Source: Hydrogenophaga sp. BPS33
GTDB taxonomy: Bacteria > Pseudomonadota > Gammaproteobacteria > Burkholderiales > Burkholderiaceae_C
DNA: 64,000 nucleotides
Reading direction: 5' to 3'
Assembly: GCF_009859475.1 (NCBI RefSeq)
Contig: NZ_CP044549.1
Span: 3,534,001-3,598,000, forward strand
The notes under the pieces are model-generated. The model was given only the letters and a program-made list of their open reading frames with translations, was not told the origin of the DNA and did no database searches. A program made the position numbers and the translations under genes. Positions 38,368 through 58,412 of this stretch are shown one piece after another. Each line of letters starts with the position of its first letter. Position 1 is the first letter of the stretch.

Positions 38368-38415
38368 GGTGTGGGTCAAAAGGAGAAACGATCGGGCAGG
38401 CGCGAACTGCGGGCC

Positions 38416-41301: not shown

Positions 41302-41419
41302 CGTTTTTTCTCCTGTGGCTCTGATGTGGGAATGCGCCGCATTGGAACAGCGCGATGCAACGCCGTCCAAGACTGTTTGCGGCTGGCAGGCATCGCAAAG
41401 CCGTCTACCTCCCAGAAAC

Positions 41420-41442
41420 AAAAAGCCACCCCGAAGGGTGGC
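41420..41442 (-). terminator. Original aceA terminator, left by island insertion
   Basis: GCCACCC-CGAA-GGGTGGC with an A-run on the left, reading leftward. The same hairpin follows intact aceA at 56952-56977. It now ends only the aceA remnant, and may also help end transcription toward tctC. Confidence 0.8.
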
Positions 41443-41472
41443 GATTTGTCTCCTCTGTGAGGCGGATTCAGC

Positions 41473-41702
41473 TCAGTGGAACTGCTCTTCCTCGGTCGAA
41501 CCCGTCAGCGCCTTCACGCTGGAAGAACCGCCCTGGATCACCGTGGTCACGTCGTCGAAGTAACCCGCGCCCACTTCCTGCTGGTGCGACACGAAGGTGT
41601 AGCCCTTTTCGCGTGCGGCGAATTCGGGTTCCTGCACCATTTCCGTGTAGTGCTTCATGCCTTCGCCGCGGGCGTAGGCGTGGGCGAACTGGAAGGTGTT
41701 GA
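41473..41702 (-). pseudogene. Displaced 3' end of isocitrate lyase gene
   Basis: About 76 codons of the C-terminus of AceA, from [14 protein letters not shown] to TEEEQFH and the stop. They are nearly identical to the end of intact aceA at 57006-57235, with seven base differences. Homology stops abruptly at 41702/57235. This is the original chromosomal 3' end, cut off when the island inserted and supplied a replacement. An MSGRI-type start just outside (41715) is probably fortuitous. Confidence 0.9.
41681..41702. other. attL core (left junction of island)
   Basis: A 22-bp identical stretch, beginning TGGGCGAACTGG and ending AAGGTGTTGA, occurs here and at 57214-57235. Sequence to its right is unrelated at the two sites. 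It encodes part of NTFQFAHA in aceA. It is the likely crossover region, although strand exchange could lie elsewhere within the repeat. Confidence 0.75.
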
Positions 41703-42547: not shown

Positions 42548-42648
42548 TGCTCCCTTCCTTACGGAGCCTCCTTGGGACACCGTCCACGGGCGGCAACACA
42601 ATGACGCTGCGCAGCATTCGCCTTCCACAGTTGGCAAATGGACCAACA

Positions 42649-42861
42649 TTATTCAGACGTATCGGAATTCATTTTTTTTCGGCCTGCAGAAACACCGCGA
42701 TGGATCAGTAGCGCGATTGCACAAACCAGCAGGACGATGAGTGCGGCAATCATCGTATGCGCCGTCGGGGACAAGATAGCCAATGCTACCGTCGCCACCA
42801 ACGGAACGCCCAGCGAGACCACAACAACCGCCGTCGAGAGGAGATTGAGGAACTTCTTCAT
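42649..42861 (-). CDS. Small membrane protein
   Basis: 70 residues starting MKKFLNLLST at 42861. Two hydrophobic segments (TAVVVVSLGVPLVATVALAIL and MIAALIVLLVCAIALLI) are separated by a short polar turn. A short basic C-terminus (HRGVSAGRKKMNS) follows. It lies opposite in direction to its neighbours. No family recognised. Confidence 0.55.
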   Translation of the reverse strand: MKKFLNLLSTAVVVVSLGVPLVATVALAILSPTAHTMIAALIVLLVCAIALLIHRGVSAGRKKMNSDTSE

Positions 42862-42948
42862 TTGACTTCCCACGCAATGTGGTGCGCATTTGACGACCAC
42901 TCATGGCCGATAGACGTCATCGTAGCCGAGAGTCTCAGCACGTCTAAC

Positions 42949-43221
42949 ATGGCGTGCATGGATCTCGACGCCATCGACCCCGCCGAACTGCGCACTTCCA
43001 TGCTGCTGGCCATGGACTTCCTGACCGCGCATCGAGTTGCCCGGGATCACACATACGACGTCGGCCGAATCACGGCAATGCGGGCTGTCTTGGAGGAGAG
43101 GGTTCTTCGGGCACTCGCGGAGACCGACACAGCACAGATGCCCGCCGATTGGTCCTGGAGGCACGCTGCACATGAGATCGCTGTCCGGATTGCGCTGGAC
43201 CTGGTCGAAGAGGAGCGGTGA
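42949..43221 (+). CDS. Small acidic orphan protein
   Basis: 90 residues, MACMDLDAIDPAELRTSML at the start, largely alpha-helical by composition, ending LDLVEEER. An alternative ATG lies three codons in (42958). Just upstream (42918-42933) is CATCGTAGCCGAGAGT, which recurs at 46443-46458 near the SRAP gene. It converges with the serine recombinase 12 bp away. No family recognised. Confidence 0.5.
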   Translation: MACMDLDAIDPAELRTSMLLAMDFLTAHRVARDHTYDVGRITAMRAVLEERVLRALAETDTAQMPADWSWRHAAHEIAVRIALDLVEEER

Positions 43222-43233
43222 GCCTTAGCCAAG

Positions 43234-44727: not shown

Positions 44728-44842
44728 GAGCACCATCCTCCAGTACCGGCCAGAAATTGAACTGGGCACCCAAGGGGATCATCGACCATAGCGAGGAATG
44801 AGCGCAAGCAGCACACGCCGGAGTCATTGCCGACCGCACTGC

Positions 44843-44870
44843 AAATAGCTGTACATACATACAGTTATTT
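44843..44870. promoter_or_regulatory. LexA-type SOS box
   Basis: CTGTACATACATACAG at 44849-44864 fits CTGT-N8-ACAG, the LexA consensus of beta/gammaproteobacteria. It is the core of a longer inverted repeat with arms AAATAGCTGTA and TACAGTTATTT (10 of 11 pairs). It lies in the 160-bp divergent region between the serine recombinase and the 62-residue gene, so it could control both. LexA binding is inferred. Confidence 0.65.
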
Positions 44871-44887
44871 GCGGTACCATTACGCAA

Positions 44888-45076
44888 ATGGACGCCCTCC
44901 CCGCAAACATCTGGATCGCCGCCTGCGCTCATCAGCTGCAGCAGCACTGGCGCTCGGTTGACCCTGCACAGCTGGAAGATCTCGCAGGCGACCTCTGGCG
45001 GGATGAGCGGCTGCGCGCGATGGGCCCAGATGAGGCTGCGCGGGTTTGGCTTGAGCCGGTGACCAACCTCTCGTGA
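44888..45076 (+). CDS. Small orphan protein under the SOS-like box
   Basis: 62 residues, MDALPANIWIAACAHQLQQH at the start, rich in Trp, Asp and Arg, no membrane segment or known motif. The ATG is 18 bp beyond the LexA-type inverted repeat. It precedes the 119-residue gene by 9 bp and the SRAP gene further on, all in one direction, so they may form an SOS-induced operon. Confidence 0.55.
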   Translation: MDALPANIWIAACAHQLQQHWRSVDPAQLEDLAGDLWRDERLRAMGPDEAARVWLEPVTNLS

Positions 45077-45085
45077 AGGCCACCG

Positions 45086-45445
45086 ATGCGCGTGACGTTG
45101 ACCATGCTTCGTCGAGGCGGACGAGCACTCCGCGCTGAGACCCAAAAGTCGCTCACGGGCGATGTGCACACCAAGCGGTTCAAGGCTGGAGACACGTGGG
45201 TGAAGGTTCTAGCGTTCCACCAGTCCGGTTGCGCACCGGGAATGATTGAGCTCTACGATCCCAAGATCAAGGAGTGCGTTCAGGGGCAGGCCACCATGGT
45301 GCTTGCGGGCGTCGAGAGAGATGACGATGCCTGGGTCGTCCAGGAGTGGCGGATTGAAGTCTCGCCCCCTCCTCCCGAGACGCCCGTGGGAAAGGGCTGG
45401 CATAAACCCGAGCGCAGGTACCCATCAATGGATCGGGTCGGGTGA
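45086..45445 (+). CDS. Hypothetical island protein
   Basis: 119 residues, starting MRVTLTMLRRGGRAL. The middle (DTWVKVLAFHQSGCAPGMIELYD, then TMVLAGVERDDDAWVVQEWRIEV) is beta-rich. A proline-rich C-terminal tail follows. It lies between the 62-residue gene and the SRAP gene. No family recognised; small phage-type accessory protein is the best description. Confidence 0.6.
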   Translation: MRVTLTMLRRGGRALRAETQKSLTGDVHTKRFKAGDTWVKVLAFHQSGCAPGMIELYDPKIKECVQGQATMVLAGVERDDDAWVVQEWRIEVSPPPPETPVGKGWHKPERRYPSMDRVG

Positions 45446-45495
45446 CGCACAGCAGGTATGCTGACCTCCGAAGATCCATTCAATGGAGGCCAGCC

Positions 45496-46416
45496 ATGTG
45501 CTACTCAGCTCAAATCTGGGCGGACTACCGACGGTACAAGCGGGCGTACGGCACGGAGATCGACATTGCCACCTTCGCCGAGCTGTTTTGGTCGCGGCTG
45601 GAGAATCCCCGCATCGTGATTCCCCGGGGTTTAGAGGCGACGTTTGAGCACCCGACCAATGAGGCCGAGCGGAGCATCTGGGAGGCGATCGAGCTGCACC
45701 GCACCCGCACATCCGCCACCATTGAGCAGGACCTCTTCAAACAGCGCAAGCGCCTGGCCGACGCCGAGCGGTCTCTTCTGACGAAGCACACCAAGAAGGC
45801 GACGGAGGACGTGCGCATTGCCGGTGACAAGATCGCGCGCGGGCTGTCCAGGCTGGAGGAGATGCGGCGCACCGAGCTCACACCAAATGACTCACGGATC
45901 TACCCCGGCAACTACGCCCCGGTGATGGTGATGGAGAACGGGCGGCGAGTCGTGAAGCCCATGCGCTACCAGTGCCGTCCTGCAGGCAAACCGGCGATCT
46001 ACGACACCAAATATCCGGGCACCTACAACGCCCGACGGAACAACCTCACGGGCTTCTGGCGCGGGCAGTTTGGTGTGACTCACGGCCTAATGGTGGTGGA
46101 TGTGTTCTACGAGAACGTGAGCACGCCGGACGGCAATGTGGTGCTGGAGTTTCGTCCTCGATCGGGTGAGCCCATGCTGATCGCCTGCCTGTGGTCGAAG
46201 TGGACTGCGCCGGCGGAACCTGACCTGCTGTCGTTCGCGGCCATCACGAGTGATCCGCCGCCCGAGGTCGCAGCTGCTGGACATGACCGATGCATCGTGC
46301 AGATACGGCCAGAGAACGTGGACCGGTGGCTGCGTGCAGGGGGCAACGATGCGGAGCTACTCGCGATTCTCGATGACCCGGCGCCCACCTACTACGAGCA
46401 TCGACTGGCTGCTTAG
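45496..46416 (+). CDS. SRAP-family protein (YedK/HMCES-like), diverged
   Basis: 306 residues. MCYSAQ places Cys2 at the mature N-terminus, the residue that in SRAP proteins forms a thiazolidine cross-link to abasic sites in single-stranded DNA. Later blocks echo the family: YNARRNNLTGFWRGQ (the N-A-R segment), VVDVFYENV (the active-site glutamate region) and AGHDRCIVQI (the histidine region). It has an extra helical insert near residues 60-115, longer than YedK. An AATGGAGG precedes the ATG. The downstream position from a LexA-type box fits a damage-response role. Confidence 0.8.
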   Translation: MCYSAQIWADYRRYKRAYGTEIDIATFAELFWSRLENPRIVIPRGLEATFEHPTNEAERSIWEAIELHRTRTSATIEQDLFKQRKRLADAERSLLTKHTKKATEDVRIAGDKIARGLSRLEEMRRTELTPNDSRIYPGNYAPVMVMENGRRVVKPMRYQCRPAGKPAIYDTKYPGTYNARRNNLTGFWRGQFGVTHGLMVVDVFYENVSTPDGNVVLEFRPRSGEPMLIACLWSKWTAPAEPDLLSFAAITSDPPPEVAAAGHDRCIVQIRPENVDRWLRAGGNDAELLAILDDPAPTYYEHRLAA

Positions 46417-46505
46417 AATGACTGTCATCGGCCCATCGCGGCCATCGTAGCCGAGAGTGTCGCCACACCCAACCCAGCAACAGTAGTCGCCGAGCTGGGT
46501 GTGAT

Positions 46506-47690
46506 CTAGGCTACCTTCTGCGTCTCTGCACACGACACAGATGCCACCGCGTTTGCCGCCTCCTCCATGGCCGACATGAGCACTGTGTCCGAGAGATGCG
46601 CATACCGCTGAGTCGTCTTCACCTGCGTGTGTCCCAGCAGCCGCCCCACCTCATAGATCGACCGCCCGGAGTTCACCAGGTTGCTCGCGAAGCTGTGCCG
46701 CAGATCGTGGATACGCACACCATCCAGACCGGCCCGCTTCCGTATCGCATCCCATTGGTGATGCAGATTGCCCCATGGCTTCAGGGTTGAGGGGTTCGGT
46801 ACCACGTATGAGCAGCCATCGAATCGGGGCAATGAGGCGAGCACATCGACGGCCGCCGACGACAGGGGAACATTGCGCGCCCTCCCCGACTTCGACATCG
46901 GTATGTGCCACATCCGACGTTCAAGGTCTACGTGCTCCCAGCGAGCCTCCAGCAGTTCCCTCTTGCGGCAACCCAGCATCAGCAGCAGCGGGACAATGAC
47001 CCTCATCTGCTCGTAGGGGCACGCCTCCAGCACCGTGCGCAGCCGCTGGACCTCCTCGGCGGTCAGGTAGCGCTCCCGGCCATTGTTGAGCTGAAACAGC
47101 TTCAGTGACTGAGCCGGGTTGTTCGACGCCCCCTGCACCTTCATTCGACGACCGAGGTTGTAGAAGATCTTGAACAGGGTCGGCATCTTATTGGCCGTCG
47201 AGAGTGCATAGCCGCGGGCCTTCAGTTCATCATGAGCATCACCGATCATCTTGGGTGTGATCTCGTCCAGCCGACGCGAGCCAAATCGCGGCAGGATGTG
47301 ATGCTTCAGGAAGCTCACCGTGGATTGGTAGTTGCGACGATGTGCGCGTATGTGCGGCATGTAGACGTCGCGGATGAACTCCGACAGGGTGGGAACCGTG
47401 CGCTGTGCTCGGCGCTCATCCATGGGACTATCGCCGCCGACGACGCGGGAGCGGACCCGCTGTGCTGTGTCGCGTGCACGGGTGAAGTTGATGGACGCGG
47501 CATCGCCGATCTTGTACTGGCGCTGCTTGCCGTACTGGTCGCGGTAGCGCAGGTGGTAGGTCTTGCCGCCCGACGCACGGACCTCCAGGATGAAGCCCGG
47601 CACGGCGGTGTCGTAGAGGTCGATCTTGCTGCGACCCTCCGGGCACGTAGCGGTGTTGACGATGGATGTGGACAGGGTGACGGTGGGCAC
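46506..47690 (-). CDS. Tyrosine recombinase/integrase
   Basis: 394 residues. The N-terminal arm-binding domain has VPGFILEVRASGGKTYHLRYRD. A SAM-like core-binding domain follows, then the catalytic domain. The likely catalytic set is R244 (GCRKRELLEARW), H328/R331 (HDLRHSF), H354 (LGHTQVKTTQ) and Y363. Integrases of this type use gene 3' ends as attachment sites, so it is the best candidate for insertion at aceA. It lies in the middle of the island, not at the edge, which is unusual. Confidence 0.93.
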   Translation of the reverse strand: MPTVTLSTSIVNTATCPEGRSKIDLYDTAVPGFILEVRASGGKTYHLRYRDQYGKQRQYKIGDAASINFTRARDTAQRVRSRVVGGDSPMDERRAQRTVPTLSEFIRDVYMPHIRAHRRNYQSTVSFLKHHILPRFGSRRLDEITPKMIGDAHDELKARGYALSTANKMPTLFKIFYNLGRRMKVQGASNNPAQSLKLFQLNNGRERYLTAEEVQRLRTVLEACPYEQMRVIVPLLLMLGCRKRELLEARWEHVDLERRMWHIPMSKSGRARNVPLSSAAVDVLASLPRFDGCSYVVPNPSTLKPWGNLHHQWDAIRKRAGLDGVRIHDLRHSFASNLVNSGRSIYEVGRLLGHTQVKTTQRYAHLSDTVLMSAMEEAANAVASVSCAETQKVA

Positions 47691-48078
47691 GATGGTGACT
47701 CCTCAGAAAAGTACAGACGAAAAAAAACCCCACCGGCAGCGAGTGCAGGCAGGGCCTGTGATTGGGTGATCTATTGGTTGGTTAGACTAGGTGGATCTCC
47801 TTGATTTGTGTGAACCGATGCGGGCTCGCAGCGGCTCTGAGACATGGGTTTCTTCTGGGCGGGCCACACACCCAACGGTCGGGGGGACGGGAGGCAACGG
47901 AAGCAACTTTGCCAACCTTGGCCGGCCCAGCTGTGGCGGCGGAAGCGCCAGGCAGGTCTTTGCGCGTGTTTCTGCTACCCGTGCCTCCGCCCTGAGTTAG
48001 CGTTGCATGCGGTCATGCCAATAGAAAGTCGTGTTCTCTGCCCCCCGTGCTACCGCCCGGTTGAGCTCACACCAAAAA
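47691..48078. other. Non-coding gap between integrase and VapE gene
   Basis: About 390 bp. It includes an A-run and GC-rich text at 47722-47760 near the integrase start and G-rich, C-rich repeats around 47860-47960 (CAACGGTCGGGGGGACGGGAG). These resemble the GC-rich segments at 41760, 49940 and 52840. No gene or clear site was identified. Confidence 0.4.
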
Positions 48079-48107
48079 AAAGGGAGACCCTTTTGAGGAC
48101 TCCCTTT
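48079..48107 (-). terminator. Terminator after the VapE gene
   Basis: Reading leftward, AAAGGGAG pairs with CTCCCTTT around a 13-nt loop, followed by more T residues. It lies 27 bp past the VapE-gene stop. Confidence 0.7.
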
Positions 48108-48133
48108 GGCATCTCTGCAGAGACTTGACTGAC

Positions 48134-49465
48134 TTAGAACACCACTTCCGGCACTTCCCTTTCGGTACGTGCGCTTACGCCATAAACCGACGGAGCCCTG
48201 AACGGGACTAGCCACCGCTCACGATCCCGGATCTTCTTACTGCCGCCGAAGAACTCTCTCAGCAGCCTGGCGCACTCCTTGGCCTGTCCATTGGTGGGAT
48301 ACGAGATGCCGAGCTTTACGAGCACTTCGCTGGAGGTAAAAGCCTCACACCCACTTCGATCGCTGCACTCCACATCGACCTTTTCAAGGAACGCCTCACG
48401 AATCACGCTAACTGCGCGGTGCTTGCGGTTCTCGTACTCCAGGAGTGCTTCCTCCTCTTGATTGAGCCACCACGTTGCACCCTCGTCCAGCATCACCAGA
48501 GCCTGCGCATACAACTGCTGCATGTTGATGCCATGCTGGTAGTTGATGTGTTCGGTCTCGATGGTCCAGAACCTTGAATTTCCCGTTGAATCCTCCAAAA
48601 AGTTGTACTCATTCACAGAAGCACAGAACACTGTCCGCCTGCGATATTCCGATTCGGTCCGTGCATACGGCTTCCGAATCTTGTCCTGATCACTCGTCAA
48701 AAAGCCCTTCAATCGAGCGAAATCCTTCCCGATAGTGCTGTCCAGTTCTCCCAGCTCGACGATCAGATGCTTGATCGCACCAAGCTTTGAGTCCTTGTTG
48801 TGTACGTCCAGATGATGGTCGATCTTGACTAGTCGCTCGCGCAACTCGGGATCGTCCACCAAGCCCCGGAACCAGCTCGTCTTGCCGAGGCCCTGCCGCC
48901 CCTGCATGGTCAGTACACCGCGACCGCTGAAGTTCGTCTGAGTCGCTGCGGCCGCAACGCTCAAGACAAACTTCACGACCAGGATGTCCCGCAGAAACTT
49001 GGGGTAGCTCTTCGCCGGAGTGATGGTTTCAGCAATGGCCGCCATCCGATCAACGCCGTCCCATGGTTCGGAGCGCATCCACTCCTCAGCACAGTTCGTC
49101 TCGTTGTCTTTGGCCATCACCTCGATATAGCCCGAGATGTTCGCCGCCGGCAACTTGTTCAACTGAGCCAGGCTAATGACCGTGGCCAGCAGGGCTTCCT
49201 GCATGCCTTCGGTGTTGGCTACGCCGTCCATGAACAGCGCTGTGGACTTGGTGATCAAGTCGTTTGACACCGAAATGCCGTAACCCTTGAGCATGTGGGC
49301 GAGATTCTCGATCGTGCCCGGTAGTGCGTGATGTGGTAACTCTGGTTGGTGTGGAAAGCTGGCCTTGTCCAGCGGCTGGAAAACCCTGGTCAGACTTGGC
49401 AAGAAGGACTTGCGTCCTGCGCGCTTTGTTGCTTTCACTACCGTATCTTCGTATTCCTTTGTCAT
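48134..49465 (-). CDS. VapE-family (virulence-associated E) replication ATPase
   Basis: 443 residues with the VapE/D5-like helicase core. Walker A is GRQGLGKTS at 189-197. Acidic Walker B region is KHLIVELGELDST, the sensor part is RRTVFCASVNEYNFLEDSTGNSRFW, and EPWDGVDRM is the typical upstream block. Such proteins act as replication helicases or initiators in phage satellites (PICI/SaPI) and prophages. The N-terminal primase part of larger homologues is missing. It supports the satellite interpretation of the island. An AT-rich promoter region lies upstream. Confidence 0.88.
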   Translation of the reverse strand: MTKEYEDTVVKATKRAGRKSFLPSLTRVFQPLDKASFPHQPELPHHALPGTIENLAHMLKGYGISVSNDLITKSTALFMDGVANTEGMQEALLATVISLAQLNKLPAANISGYIEVMAKDNETNCAEEWMRSEPWDGVDRMAAIAETITPAKSYPKFLRDILVVKFVLSVAAAATQTNFSGRGVLTMQGRQGLGKTSWFRGLVDDPELRERLVKIDHHLDVHNKDSKLGAIKHLIVELGELDSTIGKDFARLKGFLTSDQDKIRKPYARTESEYRRRTVFCASVNEYNFLEDSTGNSRFWTIETEHINYQHGINMQQLYAQALVMLDEGATWWLNQEEEALLEYENRKHRAVSVIREAFLEKVDVECSDRSGCEAFTSSEVLVKLGISYPTNGQAKECARLLREFFGGSKKIRDRERWLVPFRAPSVYGVSARTEREVPEVVF

Positions 49466-49935
49466 CGTTGTGTTCCCTTTTTTTTGTATTTATTAGAACT
49501 TTATTAATAGCATCAAGCGTTCAAGCCTGAAGCCGCTGGTCTGAGAAACTCTGATCAGGAGTAACTCAGGACCGCTAGTTTAGGGCGGGGCCAAATGGGG
49601 CCAGGGCGCAGATGCATCTACATGTAACGGCACAAATTCGAGCTCGATTTGCCTAATTTGATAACGGGAAAATAGCCGCAAACTTGCACATTGAATACTA
49701 TGACACCAAAACATAAAAACCACCCCATTGATACTTACCAATAAGTAGTACCAAATTTTGTAGAAATTAGCATTTTTGATTATCGCCAGCGATACATCAC
49801 ATTGCAATTGAAATAAAGAGGGACGAAATGCATTTCCTCCACTATAGATACGTGCTTTTCCCCACGCTGCTTGCCCGTCAGACCCCGGCAAGAGCGCAGG
49901 AGCTGATGCCCTTGCGTGGTCATCATTGACCGCAC
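49466..49935. other. AT-rich non-coding region upstream of the VapE gene
   Basis: About 470 bp with low GC (for example TATTTATTAGAACTTTATTAATAG near 49490 and AT-rich text at 49630-49830). The open frames here have no family resemblance and no ribosome sites. Its position beside a replication ATPase makes it a candidate replication origin or control region. No definite iterons were confirmed. Confidence 0.4.
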
Positions 49936-49939
49936 TTAG

Positions 49940-50190
49940 AACCGGCCCCGGAACCCTTTTCGAAAAGTTGGTCAGGCTGCCCCCCGTGCCCCCGTCTGGT
50001 TGCCCGAGCCGAGCCGCTGCCCCGGGTGGTGCCCGAGGTTGCCCAGGTTTGGCCATAGCGGCCCCGTCGGCGCCCCGGCATGGCCACCCCCATTGCTCGC
50101 ACCTGCGCGGCCCTGGCGGTCACATTCGGCGGCCCACGCGCGGTCTGGCTGGTCAGCGGCGGCGGCCCGGTCCAACTTGCTGCGTCGGTG
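49940..50190. repeat. GC-rich region with GGTTGCCC/GGTGCCC-type repeats
   Basis: Contains GGTTGCCCGAG, GGTGGTGCCCGAGG and GGTTGCCCAGG in close order, then CATGGCCACCCCCATTGC. A related run (GGGTGCCCGG, GGGTGCCCAGG, CATGACCACCCCCATGG) occurs at 52838-52970. Open frames cross it in several phases but none looks coding. Function unknown; iterons or a structured RNA are possibilities. Confidence 0.4.
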
Positions 50191-50211
50191 ATGCATGACA
50201 TGGATGACTCC

Positions 50212-50382
50212 CTACTTGAATAGGTACAGAACGAAGGTGATGGCCAGCACGATCAGGCAGGCCGCTACGATTGGCTTGAGGTAGCAGACAGCAACTAGGC
50301 AGACAATGCCGAACCCCCTCGTACTCGCGAAGAGCATCGAGAGCAGCGCAGCCGCCAGCAGAGCGCCGATCACGCCCGTCAT
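50212..50382 (-). CDS. Small membrane protein overlapping the upstream gene
   Basis: 56 residues starting MTGVIGALLAAALLSML, almost entirely hydrophobic with two likely membrane helices and ending VLYLFK. The ATG overlaps the stop of the gene at 50379 as ATGA, which supports it as a real, translationally coupled gene too short for default gene calling. Holin-like size and topology, but no holin signature. Confidence 0.6.
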   Translation of the reverse strand: MTGVIGALLAAALLSMLFASTRGFGIVCLVAVCYLKPIVAACLIVLAITFVLYLFK

Positions 50383-50822
50383 TGCGCACCCCGGGACTTG
50401 CGCTTGGGTGCCTCAGTTGTGGGTGTGAACACAGAGGCCAGCGGCACGTCGGGATTGCGTGCATAGCCACGTGCGCCCTCCGGCATCGGCACCAGCACAC
50501 CGAGCCCCAGCAGCACGGCCATGAGGAAGCCGCCCGTGTTGATGGAGCGACCGGCGTACAGCTCGCGGAAAGCCGATGACGTGATCGGACCATCGCCCGC
50601 GATCACACCATCAATCTCCTTGGCGAAGATCCAATCCCGCGCGAACATGCCCCGCCCGGTGTTGTCGTGGATGCGGATGAAGTGCTCGCGCTCTCCGATG
50701 TGGCCCAGGTGGTAGGTCAGCACGGAGCGGCCGGATACTGATGGACATTGGCCCTCACGCAGGACCTGAACGAGGTCGTCGAGGGTCGGTGCTTCTGCGA
50801 TGGTGATTTCTTCGTTGGACAT
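50379..50822 (-). CDS. Hypothetical island protein with one membrane segment
   Basis: 147 residues, MSNEEITIAEAPTLDDLVQV at the start. A middle segment (GERFHFIRIHDN-like, then FAKEIDGVIAG) is globular. A hydrophobic stretch (GGFLMAVLLGLGVLVPM) near residue 100 could be a membrane helix. It is first of a pair with the 56-residue membrane protein. No family recognised. Confidence 0.6.
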   Translation of the reverse strand: MSNEEITIAEAPTLDDLVQVLREGQCPSVSGRSVLTYHLGHIGEREHFIRIHDNTGRGMFARDWIFAKEIDGVIAGDGPITSSAFRELYAGRSINTGGFLMAVLLGLGVLVPMPEGARGYARNPDVPLASVFTPTTEAPKRKSRGAQ

Positions 50823-50851
50823 GGATAGCTCCTATTGGTTGGCGGTGTGGA

Positions 50852-51037
50852 TCAAATGAGCCGCGCAAGGACGGCGGGGTACTGACGGATGACCAGCAGC
50901 AGCGCGAGCGCCTCGGCCAGATCACGGGGGATGCCGGCATCGAACTGCATGACGGCCGCCCTCTCCTCCCACGCTTCACGCAGGTTCTCGTCGAGCAGCG
51001 CGGCGAAGTCGGCGACGATGGGGTGGCTCTCATGCAT
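50852..51037 (-). CDS. Small hypothetical protein
   Basis: 61 residues starting MHESHPIVADFAALLDENLR, with GGAG upstream of the ATG at 51037. Predicted helical and mildly acidic, no membrane segment. It lies 29 bp before the 147-residue gene and 66 bp after the 117-residue gene, in the same direction, as part of a run of small island genes. Confidence 0.55.
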   Translation of the reverse strand: MHESHPIVADFAALLDENLREAWEERAAVMQFDAGIPRDLAEALALLLVIRQYPAVLARLI

Positions 51038-51103
51038 ACAAATCTCCGGACGTAAAAAAACCGCCAGAGAGGCGGTTGGGGGTGGGGGGACGGGGGGCGA
51101 CAT

Positions 51104-51457
51104 TCATGACATTGCCTCGCGACAATGAGCAAGCAGATCGGGATCGACGTTGGGGCGCACAGGTACGTACACCACCACGCCCGATCCGTCGTCGCTCAAT
51201 ACGATGGTCAGCTCGATCCAATGCTTATGGGACTCGATGACGTCCAGCGGGCGCTCCAGCAGCGGGAATCCCAACTCGGCGTCGATCGCGGCAAGTGCAT
51301 CGCCGGGTTCGACAATGACCAGCCGCACCATCTCCGTGAGGTCGCAGCCGTCATCGTCCAGGTCCGCCACTAGCCGCGCGATGAGCACCGACAGTGATGG
51401 TTCGTCGGGGTCTGCTCCGGCACTTCGGATCGAGGCCGAATCACGCAATACGCGCAT
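51104..51457 (-). CDS. Hypothetical acidic protein
   Basis: 117 residues starting MRVLRDSASIRSAG, rich in Asp/Glu (LVADLDDDGCDLTEMVRL). The C-terminal half (WIELTIVLSDDGSGVVVYVPV) is beta-rich. No known motif. It is in the same run of minus-strand small genes and an A-run lies beyond its stop near 51054. Confidence 0.55.
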   Translation of the reverse strand: MRVLRDSASIRSAGADPDEPSLSVLIARLVADLDDDGCDLTEMVRLVIVEPGDALAAIDAELGFPLLERPLDVIESHKHWIELTIVLSDDGSGVVVYVPVRPNVDPDLLAHCREAMS

Positions 51458-51543
51458 ATGTAGTTCTCCGTTTGTTGTGTGAAATGAAAAAGGGCCCCAC
51501 GGAGTGAACCGAGGGACCCATCGGGGGTTACTGCAGAGATCGA

Positions 51544-51711
51544 CTATTGAATTTTTCGGCGTCTCCTACGCAGGGTCCACACCAGCACAGCGGCCAGCAG
51601 GACGACCAGCACCGTGACCGCCAGCCGCAGCACCGAGGCCATGGCGAGGGCCGCACCTAGCTGGAACATGGCGAGCGCGGCGGGGATCGCCAGCAGGGAT
51701 ATCCAGATCAT
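51544..51711 (-). CDS. Small membrane protein
   Basis: 55 residues starting MIWISLLAIPAALAMFQLG, with AAAGGAAA just upstream. Two hydrophobic helices are followed by a strongly basic end (WTLRRRRRKIQ), which should stay in the cytoplasm. It lies downstream of a terminator for the next gene, so it needs its own promoter. No family recognised. Confidence 0.55.
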   Translation of the reverse strand: MIWISLLAIPAALAMFQLGAALAMASVLRLAVTVLVVLLAAVLVWTLRRRRRKIQ

Positions 51712-51730
51712 TGATTTCCTTTCATACAGA

Positions 51731-51762
51731 CAAAAAAAAAGCCCCGGGATTTCTCCTGGGGC
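51731..51762 (-). terminator. Terminator after the exported protein gene
   Basis: Reading leftward, GCCCC-AGGAGAAATCCC-GGGGC is followed by nine T residues. It lies about 27 bp beyond the stop of the gene at 51789. Confidence 0.85.
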
Positions 51763-51788
51763 GCGGGGTGGGGATGGCTTTGGGTTAG

Positions 51789-52184
51789 TTAGAGGCTCAC
51801 GATGATTGACGCGCACTTTGGGAAATCCACGTCCTTCGTCGCCATGAAGTGCCATGAGCCCTCCAGGAACGACACAAAGGCCATCTGAAAGCCGGTGTAG
51901 CCGCCGAATCGATTCTTGGAATTGACAGCAACACACGCGTGCTTATTGGGAAGAACAAGGACGTCACCGAAGCGAGCAGAGTCAGGATCGATCAGAGAGC
52001 GCTGAACCGCCTGAGTGATTTGAAGCTTCTCGCTGCTTGTGGCAGGTCGGACCGCTTTCAACTTTTCAGCCTCGCTGGGGTTCTGGGCCGCGCTGTGCTG
52101 CACCACCCCACAGACAGCCACTACCGCCAACAGGCACTGGCCGATGATTTTTCGCGCGGTAATGGATTGAACAAACAAACTCAT
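51789..52184 (-). CDS. Exported hypothetical protein
   Basis: 131 residues. The signal peptide (IIGQCLLAVVAVCGVVQHSAAQ) gives a mature protein of ~95 residues containing QRSLIDPDSARFGDVLVLP and FGGYTGFQMAFVSF. Two cysteines (ACVAV, KCASI) could form a disulfide. It diverges from the XRE repressor, with the operators in between, so it is likely repressed by it. No function known. Confidence 0.6.
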   Translation of the reverse strand: MSLFVQSITARKIIGQCLLAVVAVCGVVQHSAAQNPSEAEKLKAVRPATSSEKLQITQAVQRSLIDPDSARFGDVLVLPNKHACVAVNSKNRFGGYTGFQMAFVSFLEGSWHFMATKDVDFPKCASIIVSL

Positions 52185-52257
52185 GGTTCTCCTTGGTATC
52201 GATGAAGTGAAAGACAGCGAGCGGCCGCGACGGACCATCCGCAAAGGGACAATCAAT

Positions 52258-52307
52258 GTCACGTTTTTCGTGACGACAGATTATCACCACGTCACGAGAC
52301 TCGTGAC
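52258..52307. promoter_or_regulatory. Paired operators of the XRE repressor
   Basis: Two perfect 17-bp palindromes, GTCACGTTTTTCGTGAC (52258-52274) and GTCACGAGACTCGTGAC (52291-52307). Both have the form GTCACG-N5-CGTGAC and their centres are 33 bp apart, about three helical turns. The second ends directly before the repressor ATG. They should allow cooperative autorepression and control of the divergent gene. Confidence 0.8.
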
Positions 52308-52634
52308 ATGGGTTCAGAGCCTGCTCACACCACAAATCTCATCGGGAAGCGCATTCGCTCACGCCGTGAAGATTTGGGCTGGTCGCAGGAAAAGTTGGGT
52401 GTGCTGATAGGCATCGACGAGTCGTCGAGCCGGGCAAGAATCAGCCGCTATGAGTTGGGCAACCATGAACCCCAGTTGGGCATTGCGCGCAACATCGCGA
52501 AAGCATTGGAGGTGCCGCTGGCCTACCTCTACTGTGAGGAGAACGACGTGGCCGAGTTGCTGCTTGCGATGCAGGCCGTGAAAGGCAAACGGCGAACAGC
52601 TCTGATTGCCTCTTGGCTGGAACAGGTCGGATAG
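52308..52634 (+). CDS. XRE-family repressor
   Basis: 108 residues. A helix-turn-helix of the Cro/CI type spans about residues 13-72 (IGKRIRSRREDLGWSQEKLG, then ARISRYELGNHEPQLGIA and LEVPLAYLYCEEND). A short helical C-terminal tail suggests dimerisation. There is no LexA-like protease domain, so it would need an antirepressor or other signal for induction. Two palindromic operators lie directly upstream. It is probably the island's maintenance regulator. Confidence 0.85.
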   Translation: MGSEPAHTTNLIGKRIRSRREDLGWSQEKLGVLIGIDESSSRARISRYELGNHEPQLGIARNIAKALEVPLAYLYCEENDVAELLLAMQAVKGKRRTALIASWLEQVG

Positions 52635-52661
52635 TTTGAGGTCGCGTCGCGCTGAGGACTT

Positions 52662-52835
52662 ATGCAGCCTCGCACACGGGCGGACGTGGACCGACGCCAC
52701 ATCTCGGAGATCGAGCTAGGGCGGAATACCCCGGGCCTGCGTCTCATCTTCAAGCTCTGCGATGCACTTGACATCGCGCCCTCGGATCTGCTGAAGGACA
52801 TCGAGAGGCGCATGCGGGTGCAGGCCCCGCGTTAG
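52662..52835 (+). pseudogene. XRE HTH fragment, probably frameshifted
   Basis: 57 codons encoding RADVDRRHISEIELGRNTPG and LIFKLCDALDIAPSDLLKDI, the second half of an XRE helix-turn-helix. The missing first half is partly readable in another phase just upstream (SRRAEDLCSLAH), so an indel near 52672-52682 is likely. It follows the intact repressor by 28 bp. It could still be a short translated protein, but a full DNA-binding domain is absent. Confidence 0.5.
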
Positions 52836-52837
52836 TG

Positions 52838-52970
52838 CCGGTCCGGGCCGGGTGCCCGGGGGGTGCCCAGGTTGGCCCCGGGTGACGCCAACGTGGCCCA
52901 GCCATGACCACCCCCATGGCCCGGGGTTGCGCGTCGCCTGCGGCCAGTTGTGCGGCGGCCCACCACACCC
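52838..52970. repeat. GC-rich region similar to 49940-50190
   Basis: GGGTGCCCGG and GGGTGCCCAGG, then CATGACCACCCCCATGG, recall the segment at 49940-50190. There is no gene in the interval. Shared sequence in two non-coding gaps of one island suggests a repeated functional site. Confidence 0.4.
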
Positions 52971-53015
52971 AATCAAACTACCATCAGCGCCACCGTCCCG
53001 CTCAATGGAGGCCAG

Positions 53016-53285
53016 ATGAATCGCACTGATCAGCTGATTGCCGATCTCGACTATCTTGAAAACGCAGGCATGACGGTCGAGCAACTCCGGTCTCTGCATC
53101 ATTGGTCGGACAAGGAGACACGTGAGCGCGTGACGTTCAGCAGTGCGCGCGACTACTTCTCCCATGGGCACGATATGAGGACCAACAACGCGGCTTTTGC
53201 GGACAGACTGCGCGTCGTGGCAGATCTGCATCAGCGAGGGCTCGCAGGACTTGTTGAGATCGCCCTGCTTAGGCGCCCCTTCTGA
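53016..53285 (+). CDS. Small hypothetical protein
   Basis: 89 residues starting MNRTDQLIADLDYLENAGMT, polar and helical. The ATG is preceded by TCAATGGAGGCCAG, the same 14 bases that precede the SRAP gene, so the two starts share an origin or regulation. No known family. It begins the segment leading to the AT-rich cargo. Confidence 0.55.
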   Translation: MNRTDQLIADLDYLENAGMTVEQLRSLHHWSDKETRERVTFSSARDYFSHGHDMRTNNAAFADRLRVVADLHQRGLAGLVEIALLRRPF

Positions 53286-53370
53286 CCCAATGCTGTTTAA
53301 AGCACGTACATGCCCCTCGCGCAGCTCGGACCATGGACATTCAATCTGGTCCGTCGCCAACAGCTCGTAT

Positions 53371-53577
53371 ATGAAGGGCCTGCGTTGCGCGCGCTGCCCG
53401 GGGGTGTTCTACCAGGCAGGCATGGGCGTCTGGCTCTGGTCGTCGCTGCTGATGCCGATCACACCATTCTTCCTGATCCATTGGGCTGTGGGCATCGTGG
53501 CGATGGTCGCGGAAGTCTTGCATGTGATGGTGTATATCAATCGAAGAATGCCACTGTTGGCAGCGCAGCGAAGCTAG
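53371..53577 (+). CDS. Possible small membrane protein with CxxC motif
   Basis: 68 residues starting MKGLRCARCPGVFYQAG. The CARC pair near the N-terminus could bind a metal. It is followed by two membrane segments (WLWSSLLMPITPFFLIHWAV, then AMVAEVLHVMVYI). The ribosome site is poor, and a longer frame upstream exists, so the start is uncertain. No family recognised. Confidence 0.4.
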   Translation: MKGLRCARCPGVFYQAGMGVWLWSSLLMPITPFFLIHWAVGIVAMVAEVLHVMVYINRRMPLLAAQRS

Positions 53578-53674: not shown

Positions 53675-54316
53675 TCACGTCACACGCCTGATTGCATGCT
53701 CGGCGAGGACTGAACAAACCAATCTGACTCCGCTATTTCTTGCCGCAATGCTGGTCAATAAATATTGCACCGCAAAAAGTCCAAAGGCCTGGAAAATCGT
53801 AATGATTGACACCACAGAGAATGTCATAACGAGCGGCACGAGCAGCATAAGGAGGAATGACAATCCAGCCATTTCGCGAAAACGAAGAAAGCTCCGGTTT
53901 GCATCGATCACGCTGGTCTTTGCATCCACCCTTCGATACAGCTTGTACCACAACTCGTTCTGTTCACGGGGAACCTTCGGGAAAGATCCCACGTTCTGCT
54001 GCAACGATGCCATATCAATCCGGGGGTCGGCAGGACCGTGTCGTGTGAATGCTCTGCAGCCTGGTAGATGATCCTTAATCCGCCAAAAAACAAGCATTTC
54101 TTTAAGTGTTGCAGGCAGAAGACCTGCCAGAATCAAAATTGGCACAGGCAAGAGAGCATTCAATGCAACCCGCACTCCACTAATTTGGCTCAATGATGTG
54201 TTAGCGACAACACTTGGGAAAACTATGCCAATCAAGACAAGAATATCAAGTGCGACAAGTGCTACCAACCATGGTAGGTTCCATGCCTTTACGTGACTAC
54301 TACGTGTGTTAGCCAT
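53675..54316 (-). CDS. Four-helix membrane protein paired with the MBL hydrolase
   Basis: 213 residues. Two N-terminal membrane helices (residues ~14-34 and ~48-70), a ~75-residue cytoplasmic part (IKDHLPGCRAFTRHG to VDAKTSVIDANRSFLRFREM), then two more helices (~150-170, ~172-192). The ATG lies one base after the stop of the MBL gene, so the two are coupled. Low GC relative to the chromosome. No family recognised; a membrane effector or sensor of a two-gene system is inferred. Confidence 0.7.
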   Translation of the reverse strand: MANTRSSHVKAWNLPWLVALVALDILVLIGIVFPSVVANTSLSQISGVRVALNALLPVPILILAGLLPATLKEMLVFWRIKDHLPGCRAFTRHGPADPRIDMASLQQNVGSFPKVPREQNELWYKLYRRVDAKTSVIDANRSFLRFREMAGLSFLLMLLVPLVMTFSVVSIITIFQAFGLFAVQYLLTSIAARNSGVRLVCSVLAEHAIRRVT

Positions 54317-54317
54317 C

Positions 54318-55181
54318 TTAGTGATACTCAGTATCGATAGTGAAGCTTCCGTTCTCCGCTACGATGAAAATAATATGCCCATCTCGCCGCGTCGTCAACA
54401 CTCGGCGCCTTTTCATGTTTGACCGCACCAATAATCCATCTGGGTGATTAGAAATAACTTCAGCGCGATATGTCTGCGCCATTCGCTGAGTGTCGTGAGC
54501 TATTGCCTTATCTGACATTACGACTAATCTTGGACATGCCACATTGAACAAAGGTGCATAGTAGCCATTTTCACGCCCATGATGAGACGCTACAAGCACA
54601 TCAATATCTTTCAATTCCTCCAAGAAAGCCGGCTGTTCGAACATTGCCTCCCATCCCGCCTTTTCGAGGTCACCCGGAAAGAGAATTTTGAATCCTCGAA
54701 ATGTTATAAAAACTGCCAAACTTAAGTTGTTAGTATCTTGAAAACGAGGATAGGCATTCGAAAATGATTTCACCGTGATGCCGCCCATGTACTCGTTAAA
54801 CGGTTCAGGCACAGCACTGGTATAACTCCCATGAATGCTTAAGTACCGCTCAATGTCGTTGCTAGTACCGCCGGCCATCTTGATCCGGCGAAGATCCTCC
54901 ACCGATACCTTGCGATTGCGGGTCAAAGTCGCAACATGAATACCCTCTTCCCAGAGCGAATTGAGGTCACTCATATGATCTTGGTCGGCGTTCGTGATGA
55001 ACAGGTAGTCCAGGCGACTTCGCTTCAACGTGTTCTTGATGAACTTGCTAGGAGTCCACTCTTCAGTGCATCCAGAATCGATCATGGCCAGCCTTCCCTC
55101 GACGCCGTTAGTACGGGGTGCAATCAACGCACACGCTCCGTGTCGGACATCGCAAATGCGAAGCACCATTTCATTGCTCAT
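54318..55181 (-). CDS. ComEC/Rec2-like metallo-beta-lactamase-fold hydrolase
   Basis: 287 residues from the ATG at 55181 (MSNEMVLRICDVRHG). MBL motifs are: MIDSGC, metal-binding TNADQDHMSD (a variant of HxHxDH, with Asn for the first His), FPGDLEKAGWE, and VASHHGRENGY. This arrangement is shared with the ComEC C-terminal domain, which acts on nucleic acid or cyclic phosphodiesters. Such stand-alone MBL proteins occur in defence islands. It is immediately followed by the membrane protein gene. The activity here is inferred. Confidence 0.8.
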   Translation of the reverse strand: MSNEMVLRICDVRHGACALIAPRTNGVEGRLAMIDSGCTEEWTPSKFIKNTLKRSRLDYLFITNADQDHMSDLNSLWEEGIHVATLTRNRKVSVEDLRRIKMAGGTSNDIERYLSIHGSYTSAVPEPFNEYMGGITVKSFSNAYPRFQDTNNLSLAVFITFRGFKILFPGDLEKAGWEAMFEQPAFLEELKDIDVLVASHHGRENGYYAPLFNVACPRLVVMSDKAIAHDTQRMAQTYRAEVISNHPDGLLVRSNMKRRRVLTTRRDGHIIFIVAENGSFTIDTEYH

Positions 55182-55395
55182 TTGATCGACCCCATGCAAA
55201 ATCAACTAGAACGACATGCGTTTGGCGCAACAGTGCTGCATCTGCGCGGCCACTCTCGATACACTACTGGTAGTGTATGTCATATTTCGTAGACACCAAA
55301 TGTGCGGTTCTCGAACTTCTGATTCGCACGCAAGGCCGCACATGGCTTAAATCCAACTCCAAACGGCACTGTGGCCTTTGCGAAAGAACGAAACT

Positions 55396-56913
55396 ATGAT
55401 GCCCAGTAAACTCAAGCTTGTTGACGTACTAAGCAGGCGAATCAGGCAACTTTCTCAAAGTAAAGCTGCCTCCAGCATAAAATGGAAACTGCATTGGCTT
55501 GCACCCAATCTAATGCGCCATCCACACTTTAGCGCGGGAGAGGCAGACTACCATTTCAAACGCGATGAGAAATTAAACAGGGAGACATGCCCTGCGGGCG
55601 ATGAGGAAATAAGGTCGCCAATGGTTTGGGGGCTAGAGTTGTATGGCCCTCAAGAAATAGGCGCTCTATATCGCGCACTTGAAAGATTCAAGTGGCAAGC
55701 TGGGTGGGGCCGTAGCGAAAAGGAAAGCGCTATAGCTTGGTTGCAGAATGAACGCGCATATGGTAGAGATGGCAGTTGGTACAATGTTGGAATTGTCGTC
55801 CCCAACTCTCAAAGACAAAATTATGTCACAGCAGACAATTATGCAGACCCACCAAAACAAGCAAATCATCTATTGGTTAGATTGTTTCAACCAACGCCCT
55901 CACTCACATGCCTGCTTATTGGCTTCTCGCTCAAAGAAGAGCTCGCAAGCAGCTATCACAACCAACTTAAATTAGATCGTAAAAGCCACTATAGACGAAT
56001 TCGCAGAAGATGGGCCATCGAACATCTATCACCCGAACACATTAAATCAAAATCCATCGACGACACGCGAAATCAACTCCAAGATTTGGCATCTAACTGG
56101 TTTTCAAAAAATGCACCTGGATACTTCTCCAACACAATTTCAAGAGTGATAACAGCCGAACTTATTACAACGAAAAACCAGTCCTTATTTCCCAACTCGA
56201 AGAATGATCACGTTAGAGATTGGCGCTCTATCGTTAGCGCAACGACTCCATTCAACATTTGGACTCTTGAAGACTGCCCCGCCATGCAATTTATTGTTGA
56301 AAATCGCAAGGAATACGACAAACGCTTTCATTTAATCACAAATCTGCATACAGATAAAATCCCCGAAGATAAGATCAAACACTTGGGCGGCCATCAGCCT
56401 CACGCATACACATATTTCTGCCACGAGCACCTTGATGAAATCCTGGTCAATTTTGCTGCAATAGAGTTTTTGGTTGAAGTGTCAAAAAATCTAAAAACAA
56501 GCACAACATCACTTAAACTAGATCAAGTTCGCAAACGTACCAGCGCTAAATCATTGGAGAAGATTCAGCGTTTCTTTGACATGTCAATCGGCACTCCTCT
56601 GATCGCATCGGAACTAAAAATGCGTACTGAGGATAAGAGCCTATATAGCTTCCAGTGCTCCAAATTTTCCGCAACATCCTTGTGGGACGAGAAGAAATCA
56701 AAGCCACTAGCTGAGCTTCTCTGCGAACACACAAAATATCTAGCGTCACGCACAATTTCGGAAGAGGGTCTGACAAGGGATCATTTTGCGCAATTGGCAA
56801 ATATTGTCAGCGTGCGGGAGAGCGTCAAAGCGCAGAGCCGCATGGAATGGCTAACTCTGATGGCTCTAGTTGTAGCTCTCATCTCTCTCTGGGTGTCTTT
56901 CAGTAAATCGTGA
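55396..56913 (+). CDS. 505-residue orphan with C-terminal membrane helix (candidate defence protein)
   Basis: Very AT-rich compared with the chromosome, so recently acquired. The N-terminal half has WGLELYGPQEIGALYRALERF and WYNVGIVVPNSQRQ. The middle is polar with LGGHQPHAYTYFCHEHLDEI. The end has a heptad-like stretch (FAQLANIVSVRESVKAQSR) before a single C-terminal helix (EWLTLMALVVALISLWVSF), giving a tail-anchored layout. No known catalytic motif was found. The ATG at 55396 (with a second at 55399) lies after a weak AAAGAAC. It diverges from the MBL gene across ~215 bp. Function unknown; a membrane-targeting abortive effector is a hypothesis. Confidence 0.75.
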   Translation: MMPSKLKLVDVLSRRIRQLSQSKAASSIKWKLHWLAPNLMRHPHFSAGEADYHFKRDEKLNRETCPAGDEEIRSPMVWGLELYGPQEIGALYRALERFKWQAGWGRSEKESAIAWLQNERAYGRDGSWYNVGIVVPNSQRQNYVTADNYADPPKQANHLLVRLFQPTPSLTCLLIGFSLKEELASSYHNQLKLDRKSHYRRIRRRWAIEHLSPEHIKSKSIDDTRNQLQDLASNWFSKNAPGYFSNTISRVITAELITTKNQSLFPNSKNDHVRDWRSIVSATTPFNIWTLEDCPAMQFIVENRKEYDKRFHLITNLHTDKIPEDKIKHLGGHQPHAYTYFCHEHLDEILVNFAAIEFLVEVSKNLKTSTTSLKLDQVRKRTSAKSLEKIQRFFDMSIGTPLIASELKMRTEDKSLYSFQCSKFSATSLWDEKKSKPLAELLCEHTKYLASRTISEEGLTRDHFAQLANIVSVRESVKAQSRMEWLTLMALVVALISLWVSFSKS

Positions 56914-56951: not shown

Positions 56952-56977
56952 AAAAAAAAGCCACCCCGAAGGGTGGC
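56952..56977 (-). terminator. aceA terminator (island-supplied copy)
   Basis: Reading leftward, GCCACCC-TTCG-GGGTGGC (allowing one extra C) followed by eight T residues. It ends aceA and matches the displaced copy at 41420-41442. Confidence 0.85.
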
Positions 56978-57005
56978 CCTGTCTCCTCTGTGAGGCGGAT
57001 TCAGC

Positions 57006-58337
57006 TCAGTGGAACTGCTCTTCCTCGGTCGACCCCGTCAGCGCCTTCACGCTGGACGAGCCACCCTGGATCACCGTGGTCACGTCGTCGAAGTAACCCG
57101 CGCCCACTTCCTGCTGGTGCGACACGAAGGTGTAGCCCTTGTCGCGTGCGGCGAATTCGGGTTCCTGCACCATTTCCGTGTAGTGCTTCATGCCTTCGCC
57201 GCGTGCGTAGGCATGGGCGAACTGGAAGGTGTTGAACCAGTTGATGTGGATGCCGGCCAGCGTGATGAACTGGTACTTGTAGCCCAACGCGGCCAGGTCT
57301 TCCTGGAACGACGCGATCTGCTTGTCGTTGAGGTTCTTCTTCCAGTTGAACGACGGCGAGCAGTTGTAAGACAGCAGCTTGCCCGGGCACGCGGCCTGCA
57401 CCGCCTGGGCGAACTCGCGGGCGAAGCCGATGTCGGGCACGCCGGTTTCGCACCACACTAGGTCGGCATATGGCGCGTAGGCAACGCCGCGGCTGATGGC
57501 CTGCTCCAGGCCGTTCTTCACGCGGTAGAAGCCTTCTTGCGTGCGCTCACCGGTCAGGAAAGGCTTGTCGTTGGCGTCGTGGTCGCTGGTGATCAGGTTG
57601 GCGGCTTCCGCATCGGTGCGGGCCAGCACGATGGTGGACACGCCCATCACGTCGGCCGCAAAACGGGCAGCGATCAGCTTTTCGCAGGCCTCTTGCGTCG
57701 GCACGAGCACCTTGCCACCCATGTGGCCGCACTTCTTCACAGCGGCCAGTTGGTCTTCGAAGTGCACGCCTGCCGCGCCAGCGGCGATCATGTTCTTCAT
57801 CAGTTCGAAGGCGTTCAACACGCCGCCGAAACCGGCTTCCGCGTCGGCCACGATGGGGAGGAAGTAGTCGATGAATTCAGCGCTGCCCGGCTCGATGCCA
57901 CGGCCCCATTGGATTTCGTCGGCGCGCTTGAAGGTGTTGTTGATGCGGCGGACCATGGTGGGGACCGAGTCGTAGGCGTAGAGCGACTGGTCCGGGTACA
58001 TGGTTTCAGACGTGTTGCCATCGGCGGCCACTTGCCAGCCCGACAGGTACACCGCTTCCAGGCCAGCCTTGGCCTGTTGCATCGCCTGGCCGGCGGAGAT
58101 CGCGCCGAAGGCGTTCACATAGCCCTTCTTGGCACCGCCGTTGACCTTGTCCCACAGCTTTTCGGCGCCACGCTTGGCCAGCGTGTGCTCGATTTGCATG
58201 CTGCCGCGCAGGCGCACCACGTCGGCCGCGCTGTAGCCACGCTTCACACCTTTCCACCGGGGGTTGGTCGCCCAGTCTTTTTCCAGGGCATCGATCTGCT
58301 GCTGACGGCTCAGTTGCTCGGTGAGGGATTGGGGCAT
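57006..58337 (-). CDS. aceA: Isocitrate lyase
   Basis: 443-residue glyoxylate-shunt enzyme splitting isocitrate to succinate and glyoxylate. The signature KKCGHMGGK is at residues 201-209 with the catalytic cysteine at 203. [15 protein letters not shown] and [16 protein letters not shown] are also typical. The ATG at 58337 is preceded by AAGGAG. The last ~76 codons were brought in by the island and replace the original end, leaving the protein intact. Upstream lies an unusual repeat array that should hold its regulation by carbon source. Confidence 0.96.
57214..57235. other. attR core (right junction of island)
   Basis: Partner of 41681-41702, inside the aceA coding sequence. To the right is original chromosome (ACCAGTTGATG, coding NWF), to the left the island-borne 3' end of aceA. 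Confidence 0.75.
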
Positions 58338-58412
58338 TTGAAGACTCCTTGAGGTTGATGAAACAGCCCGGCAAGCTTGCATGCAATGGCGATGCCGTTG
58401 GACAGACTTTAA

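Follow-up and report, generated by a model that had tools for sequence, protein, structure and literature searches.

The 64,000-nucleotide stretch of the Hydrogenophaga sp. BPS33 genome analyzed here (the window; C1:3534001-3598000 of the 6.77-Mb genome, G000) contains a mobile island that carries, just inside its right junction, a gene pair encoding a ComEC-type metallo-beta-lactamase (MBL) fold protein, MBL2, and a four-helix membrane protein, TM. MBL2 and TM are a conserved, co-diverging pair, and in some other genomes they adjoin the core of the ubiquitin-like 6A-MBL system. We give about even credence to the view that the two genes make up a mobile immune module directed against foreign DNA, one that stands alone but is evolutionarily joined to the 6A-MBL system. 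The coordinates, reading frames, one-base gap between the two genes and divergent orientation of the third cargo gene were as described in an earlier sequence-only reading of the window, whose observation as such is confirmed (Table 1). All three cargo genes are intact, and their open reading frames are not products of chance, since homologues of all three were found elsewhere. The reported AT-richness also held: the G+C content is 48.3% for the TM gene, 48.0% for the MBL2 gene, 44.6% for the 505-residue gene and 46.6% for the whole cargo, whereas the island at 41703-53500 has 59.2% and the left and right flanks have 61.6% and 65.0%, respectively. Outside the cargo, the lowest value for any 3239-bp stretch of the window (50-bp steps) is 56.3%.

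A scan of genome contigs was run with patterns built from MBL2 alone, so that TM was free to be absent. It returned 48 MBL loci, of which 47 were kept after removal of one at 22% identity (L071). TM lies directly downstream of MBL2 in 39 of the 47, with two of the TM genes broken (L068, L070). In a survey of 399 genomes of the order, TM was detected in eight and MBL2 (E 1e-30) in eight, with both in seven; TM directly follows MBL2 in six of the shared genomes, and G200 has a different order. The exceptions are G087, with TM and only a weak MBL match, and G349, with MBL2 only. Over 44 pairs the identity matrices of the two proteins correlate with r = 0.825, a value that none of 2000 shuffles reached. 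The lack of conserved co-occurrence that the sequence-only reading had allowed for is clearly not what was found.

The pair is also tied to a named anti-phage operon. Of the 47 loci, 15 (L027-L037, L039, L040, L042, L050; several of them near copies) have a gene for an E2-E1-JAB protein of at least 749 residues directly upstream of MBL2, and 13 of the 15 have TM as well. The upstream proteins of L027 and L032 contain Prok-E2_A, ThiF and Prok-JAB domains and match NCBIfam 6A-MBL_cap2_3 at 2e-204 and 6.5e-206; the other 13 calls were made with our own profile of the cap2_3 cluster. In L027 the gene preceding cap2_3 encodes a second MBL (NCBIfam 6A-MBL_enzyme, 1.3e-119). Among plasmids, 21 records match TM, and 12 contexts with 5-kb flanks were examined. 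The 6A core was found within 5 kb of TM in eight of them (Polaromonas, B. glumae, P. syringae, X. citri, A. ursingii, Methylobacter, B. arboris and A. soli; in pieces in P. syringae and A. soli). It was not found within these flanks in the Rahnella, Bradyrhizobium, Staphylococcus and Azospirillum contexts, the last three of which have an MBL or a piece of one adjoining TM. The cap2_3 protein scored above cut-off in 4 of 398 order genomes, two of which have the pair (G082, G120) and two of which are not in the TM list (G279, G272). In the accessible part of the original description, row 6a as a rule comprises two genes, one for E2-E1-JAB and one for an MBL, with no membrane protein named (Iyer et al., 2006; PMC1779556). 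The MBL2-TM pair, which adjoins the core in 13 of 47 loci, is an accessory that is not in the published 6A definition.

In the window genome no E2-E1-JAB protein scored above the NF058523 cut-off of 320 bits (best E 6.6e-16), and the window MBL2 reached 14.8 bits against the 6A-MBL enzyme model NF058524 (cut-off 220). The pair here is therefore a stand-alone form. In the MBL tree, the window sequence groups with L024 (93/92) inside a set of 19 rows (95/95) that contains 14 core-linked rows. The core label requires five changes on this tree, at least four of them forced by starred branches, and the core-linked and core-free states have therefore changed more than once. Three genomes with a stand-alone pair (G425, G439 and G443, those of L038, L057 and L061) have a cap2_3 gene elsewhere. 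On Xanthomonas and Acinetobacter plasmids (L137, L138, L142), TM and the 6A core are separated by a WYL-domain gene, a possible regulator.

The window MBL2 matches the PADLOC phage-defence candidate PDC-M48B (E 1.5e-49, residues 5-277 of 287) and, barely above the cut-off, Pfam Lactamase_B (4.7e-5; 23.8 versus 22.7 bits). Its nearest solved sequences are ComEC (4.2e-7), matched across residues 151-224. According to the accessible part of its description, the ComEC MBL domain has a motif II Asp, a motif III Asn and Mn-dependent phosphodiesterase/nuclease activity (PMC8579336). Motif II of the window protein reads TNADQDH, in which the second motif II His is replaced by Asp, as in ComEC. The sequence-only reading had pointed to the Asn in place of the first motif II His as a feature that may alter activity. 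That residue is present, but it is no local peculiarity: of the 1731 proteins that pass 1e-3 in a homologue search (own included), the best 120 were listed, and all 120 have N-x-D-x-D-H (116 by pattern, four by reading). Judged from sequence, this change of the first motif II ligand characterizes the listed family as a whole. Residues N64, D66, D68, H69, N151, D171, H200 and H201 are each kept at 95% or more in the 44 MBL2/TM pairs.

The four-helix architecture proposed for TM was borne out by an AlphaFold2 model (mean predicted local distance difference test score, pLDDT, of 91), in which the helices stand as two pairs round a central part, and by three hydrophobic stretches that cover the four helices. 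The model would place the central part on the cytosolic side. Among 36 sequences, K72, P85, A89, F90, R99, Q119, Y124, L144 and R147 are invariant in or adjoining this part, as are R193 and V203 close to the C-terminus. The TM search listed 50 proteins at E 0.1, own included. The window protein had no match in Pfam, PADLOC (E 10) or NCBIfam, and a search with the TM profile at E 10 hit none of the solved chains, not even ComEC. TM also adjoins other types of MBL, with motifs TGWDQDH or HxDxDH (L041, L126, L133, L136, L143), and as a membrane partner is therefore more general than MBL2.

The placement of the cargo in a mobile island, as the sequence-only reading had it, is confirmed. A direct repeat of 286 bp marks the two ends (41417-41702 and 56952-57235; 274 of 286 blastn columns identical); the copy on the right consists of the isocitrate lyase 3' end and its terminator. 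In L085 and L087, relatives free of the element, about 60-70 bp separate the isocitrate lyase end from sequence that matches window 38001-38495. The repeat pair and these relatives indicate an element of about 15.5 kb; the window holds additional genes between the 38001-38495 match and the left repeat. As we read it, the element carries its own copy of the isocitrate lyase end that it displaces. A sister island of the same arrangement is present in G049, of the same genus (DNA identity 80% for the integrase region, 74% for VapE and 70% for the regulators), and a third element in G400 (80% for the integrase and 78% for the regulators, with no VapE match). The right-end slot differs among these islands. 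In L079 (13626-15982) it holds a 242-residue and a 200-residue protein, neither with a family in PADLOC or NCBIfam, followed by a 353-residue ComEC-like MBL with the motif HWHDDH; in L082 it holds an ATPase matching PADLOC HEC-04 at 1.2e-46. On the other side of the L079 integrase is a match to PDC-S11 (6.3e-116). Of ten sister-island proteins scanned, five had no PADLOC match at 0.1, and the remaining matches were weak or generic. The differing slots and the defence candidates together indicate that the cargo is exchangeable content of an island family that carries defence candidates. The isocitrate lyase 3' end is a recurrent insertion site (window, G049, G400), and more displaced 3' fragments occur elsewhere in G000 (C1:4507959-4508167) and in G421, where the fragment sits among SIR2-like and other defence-looking genes, as judged by eye.

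Away from the 6A core, 165 neighbours lie within 4.5 kb of MBL2 genes, and 140 were scanned (those of TM loci, minus L067 and one fragment). They matched 87 PADLOC families at 1e-12. At least 12 family names, which are not protein counts, fell below 1e-50 among the best 25 listed: a type IIG enzyme, OloA, OloB, BovA, MTase_II, RmrA, PDC-M60A, a type IV enzyme, AbiEii, Orf5, PDC-S04 and HEC-06. The control, 96 proteins drawn from 14 arbitrarily chosen stretches in five genomes, matched 31 families, with two names below 1e-50 among the best 25 (MTase_II and DruM2, perhaps one protein). By comparison with this unmatched control, stand-alone pairs have a neighbourhood rich in defence genes. One pair (L124) and one copy of the 505-residue gene adjoin a phage portal gene, taken to be of the P2 type; the portal-adjacent place is a documented antiviral hotspot in P2-like phages. 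SRAP/HMCES-like genes were noted by eye near cargo genes (window 45442-46416, L124:10949-11797, L005:947-2005). The proposal that the cargo is a candidate anti-phage or inter-element system thus stands as a candidacy from context, namely the PDC-M48B match, the 6A link, the sister islands, the neighbours and the portal hotspot.

As an immune module, the pair might work as follows. TM would sit in the inner membrane and offer its conserved cytosolic loop as a dock and perhaps as a sensor. MBL2 would be a ComEC-type metal-dependent phosphodiesterase or nuclease, held at or released from the TM loop, and would protect the cell by acting on the DNA of an incoming phage or element or, alternatively, on a nucleotide. 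The E2-E1-JAB protein and the first MBL of the 6A system are missing from the window module; in 6A-type operons the same pair would work next to the conjugation machinery and might be controlled by it. Several points weigh against this proposal. We know of no activity for any MBL2, and activity could be lost, because all listed family members have Asn as their first motif II ligand and one metal ligand is thus changed. The window MBL2 scored 16.5 bits against the NCBIfam ComEC model TIGR00361, far below the cut-off of 190. The TM model matched no solved fold, so that the sensor role is a guess. Eight of the 47 MBL2 loci have no adjacent TM (L024, L040, L041, L042, L046, L065, L066, L069). None of the three cargo proteins had a match at E 1e-5 among 50,697 phage records, and the neighbour comparison used control genomes that were not matched to the loci and the best 25 families per set.

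A different division of labor is possible, although we hold it only tentatively: TM may be a killing effector, acting by membrane disruption or as a channel, with MBL2 as a brake or signal-degrading regulator. Five plasmid loci (L137, L138, L140, L141, L142) have TM and the 6A core with no MBL2 detected within the 5-kb flanks, which makes TM the more constant part on those plasmids, and TM pairs with quite different MBLs at L041, L126, L133 and L136. A precedent by analogy is the phosphodiesterase NrN beside a CorA effector in type III CRISPR, as given in the accessible part of PMC10600005. However, MBL2 follows the 6A core without TM in two loci (L040, L042), eight of the 47 MBL2 loci have no TM next to it, and the TM model matched no pore-like fold.

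The C-terminus of MBL2 bears on how an immune module of this kind would relate to conjugation. The last residue is Gly in all 17 core-linked rows, in 33 of 40 others (one broken gene enters these 40 as two halves, and one locus is counted twice) and in 105 of the 120 homologues listed. Elsewhere, Gly is last in 18 of 22 6A-MBL enzymes, 6 of 51 TM proteins and none of 25 cap2_3 proteins. In type II CBASS (cyclic oligonucleotide-based anti-phage signaling system), the terminal Gly/Ala of cGAS is the conjugation site and, in the accessible part of the source, is described as conserved only alongside Cap2 and Cap3 (PMC10097602). The 6A-MBL enzyme tails, such as PPRAG and PHG (L027, L032, L138, L140 and others), offer a possible conjugation site, and this enzyme is a likely conjugation substrate because its Gly tail fits the cGAS yardstick. 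For MBL2 the sequence-based case is mixed. Its Gly is not forced by the ATGA overlap, since loci without TM overlap (L024, L040, L041, L065, L066) keep it with other codons or stops. Among 30 genomes with MBL2 away from the core (25 with adjacent TM), 27 had no cap2_3 match at 1e-60, a search in which both positive controls were found. All 27 retain the terminal Gly, and the MBL2 tail is therefore independent of that E1-E2, unlike the cGAS tail. The window MBL2 ends in TEYH, and a terminal His is likewise found in P0002 (72% identity, the closest among the matches listed). In the six order genomes that have MBL2 but lack the core, the last residue is H (G000), N (G098), A (G376), R (G349), E (G200) or G (G203), and in the two with the core it is G.

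These tails could be accommodated by a broader, rather doubtful scheme in which MBL2-TM is a portable membrane-docked plug-in for bacterial ubiquitin-like conjugation. The two different Gly-ended ComEC-type MBLs of each operon would be conjugated instead of ubiquitin, with TM as their membrane receptor; stand-alone pairs would be a conjugation-independent branch in which the Gly tail either docks into TM or serves some other enzyme, and even this tail would have been lost in the lineage of the window. That MBL2 is itself a conjugated modifier, with E1-E2 activating its Gly and joining it to targets in the manner of cGAS and Cap2, and with a decayed or decoupled copy in the window, seems to us unlikely. 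The prevalence of Gly ends in core-linked MBL2 rows, listed homologues and 6A-MBL enzymes, their independence of the ATGA overlap, and the analogy with cGAS would all suit such a role; the 27 cap2_3-free genomes that retain Gly and the His of the window copy argue against it.

We consider it improbable that the pair serves an ordinary function in the envelope or in DNA uptake and is found on islands by chance. The kinship to ComEC would fit, and the sporadic distribution (8 of 399 order genomes) would also suit an accessory metabolic trait, but 13 of 47 loci are directly linked to the core of a named anti-phage operon, and the phage and sister-island placements point the same way.

The 505-residue protein of the third cargo gene had been called an orphan, which overstates the case: 11 relatives share 31-41% identity with it, and its predicted fold is CorA-like. 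Its proposed single C-terminal membrane helix corresponds to one hydrophobic segment, residues 481-505, rather than the two C-terminal helices of the CorA family, and the GMN motif is present in none of the 12 sequences. The fetched stretches of seven other loci of this family (L003, L004, L005, L118, L119, L130, L131) contain neither MBL2 nor TM, and the family occurs in none of the 47 MBL loci; the earlier suggestion of possibly two systems fits these counts. The gene for the CorA-like protein would then be a second piece of cargo, independent of the pair, and its product is probably a membrane effector. Very improbable, given the same counts, is a single three-gene system with the CorA-like protein as effector, even though the genes are adjacent, divergent and similar in base composition.

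The TM family, with no Pfam, NCBIfam or PADLOC match, is newly added to the ubiquitin-like 6A anti-phage operon as a frequent partner, and the same MBL2-TM pair also travels alone. This offers a handle on what the 6A operon conjugates, no ubiquitin-like gene having been reported there: the Gly tails make both MBLs candidate substrates, and the stand-alone form allows the pair to be studied without the conjugation machinery.

Table 1. Cargo, island and insertion-site features in the window.
Feature	Position	Strand	Remarks
TM, four-helix membrane protein, 213 aa	53675..54316	-	conserved, predicted cytosolic loop at about residues 70-147
MBL2, ComEC-type metallo-beta-lactamase fold, 287 aa	54318..55181	-	ATG start; Lactamase_B and PDC-M48B matches
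Intergenic region separating the pair from the divergent 505-aa gene	55182..55395	.	214 bp
505-aa protein, CorA-like predicted fold, single C-terminal membrane helix	55396..56913	+	
Left end repeat, displaced 3' end of isocitrate lyase plus terminator	41417..41702	.	blastn versus 56952-57235; isocitrate lyase query match at G000:C1:3575473-3575702
Island tyrosine-integrase gene	46506..47690	-	by eye from translation; about 80% DNA identity in two sister islands (L079, L082; blastn)
VapE-type island-backbone gene	48134..49465	-	Pfam VapE-like_dom 2.2e-43; 74% DNA identity in L079, no DNA match in L082
Island helix-turn-helix (HTH) regulator	52308..52634	+	Pfam HTH_3 2.1e-11
Right end repeat, 3' end of intact isocitrate lyase gene plus terminator	56952..57235	.	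blastn
Isocitrate lyase, insertion target	57006..58382	-	named by eye from translation; DNA match in 23 of 25 genus genomes

Compared with known systems, the pair is closest in context to 6A-MBL (NF058523/NF058524; row 6a, PMC1779556): it directly follows the core in 13 of 47 loci, and both the 6A enzyme and MBL2 are ComEC-like and mostly Gly-tailed. It differs in that the window genome has no E2-E1-JAB protein above cut-off, the window MBL2 is far from the enzyme model (14.8 versus 220 bits) and the accessible part of the 2006 row names no membrane protein. The window MBL2 matches component M48B of PADLOC PDC-M48 over its length, whereas TM matches no PADLOC model. Type III CRISPR CorA effectors, in the accessible part of their description (PMC10600005), resemble the 505-residue protein in its predicted fold; the latter differs in having one membrane helix and, like its 11 relatives, no GMN. 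Trypsin-MBL modules (HamM and kin; PMC12799240, accessible part) likewise provide a DNA-uptake-type MBL add-on common to several defence systems, but the partner in the window is a membrane protein, and no protease family was found by Pfam in eight island proteins scanned. Finally, unlike the MBL domain of ComEC/Rec2, the window MBL2 is a separate small protein with Asn in place of the first motif II His; compared with the accessible part of PMC8579336, it shares with that domain the motif II Asp, a motif-III-like Asn and HHG.

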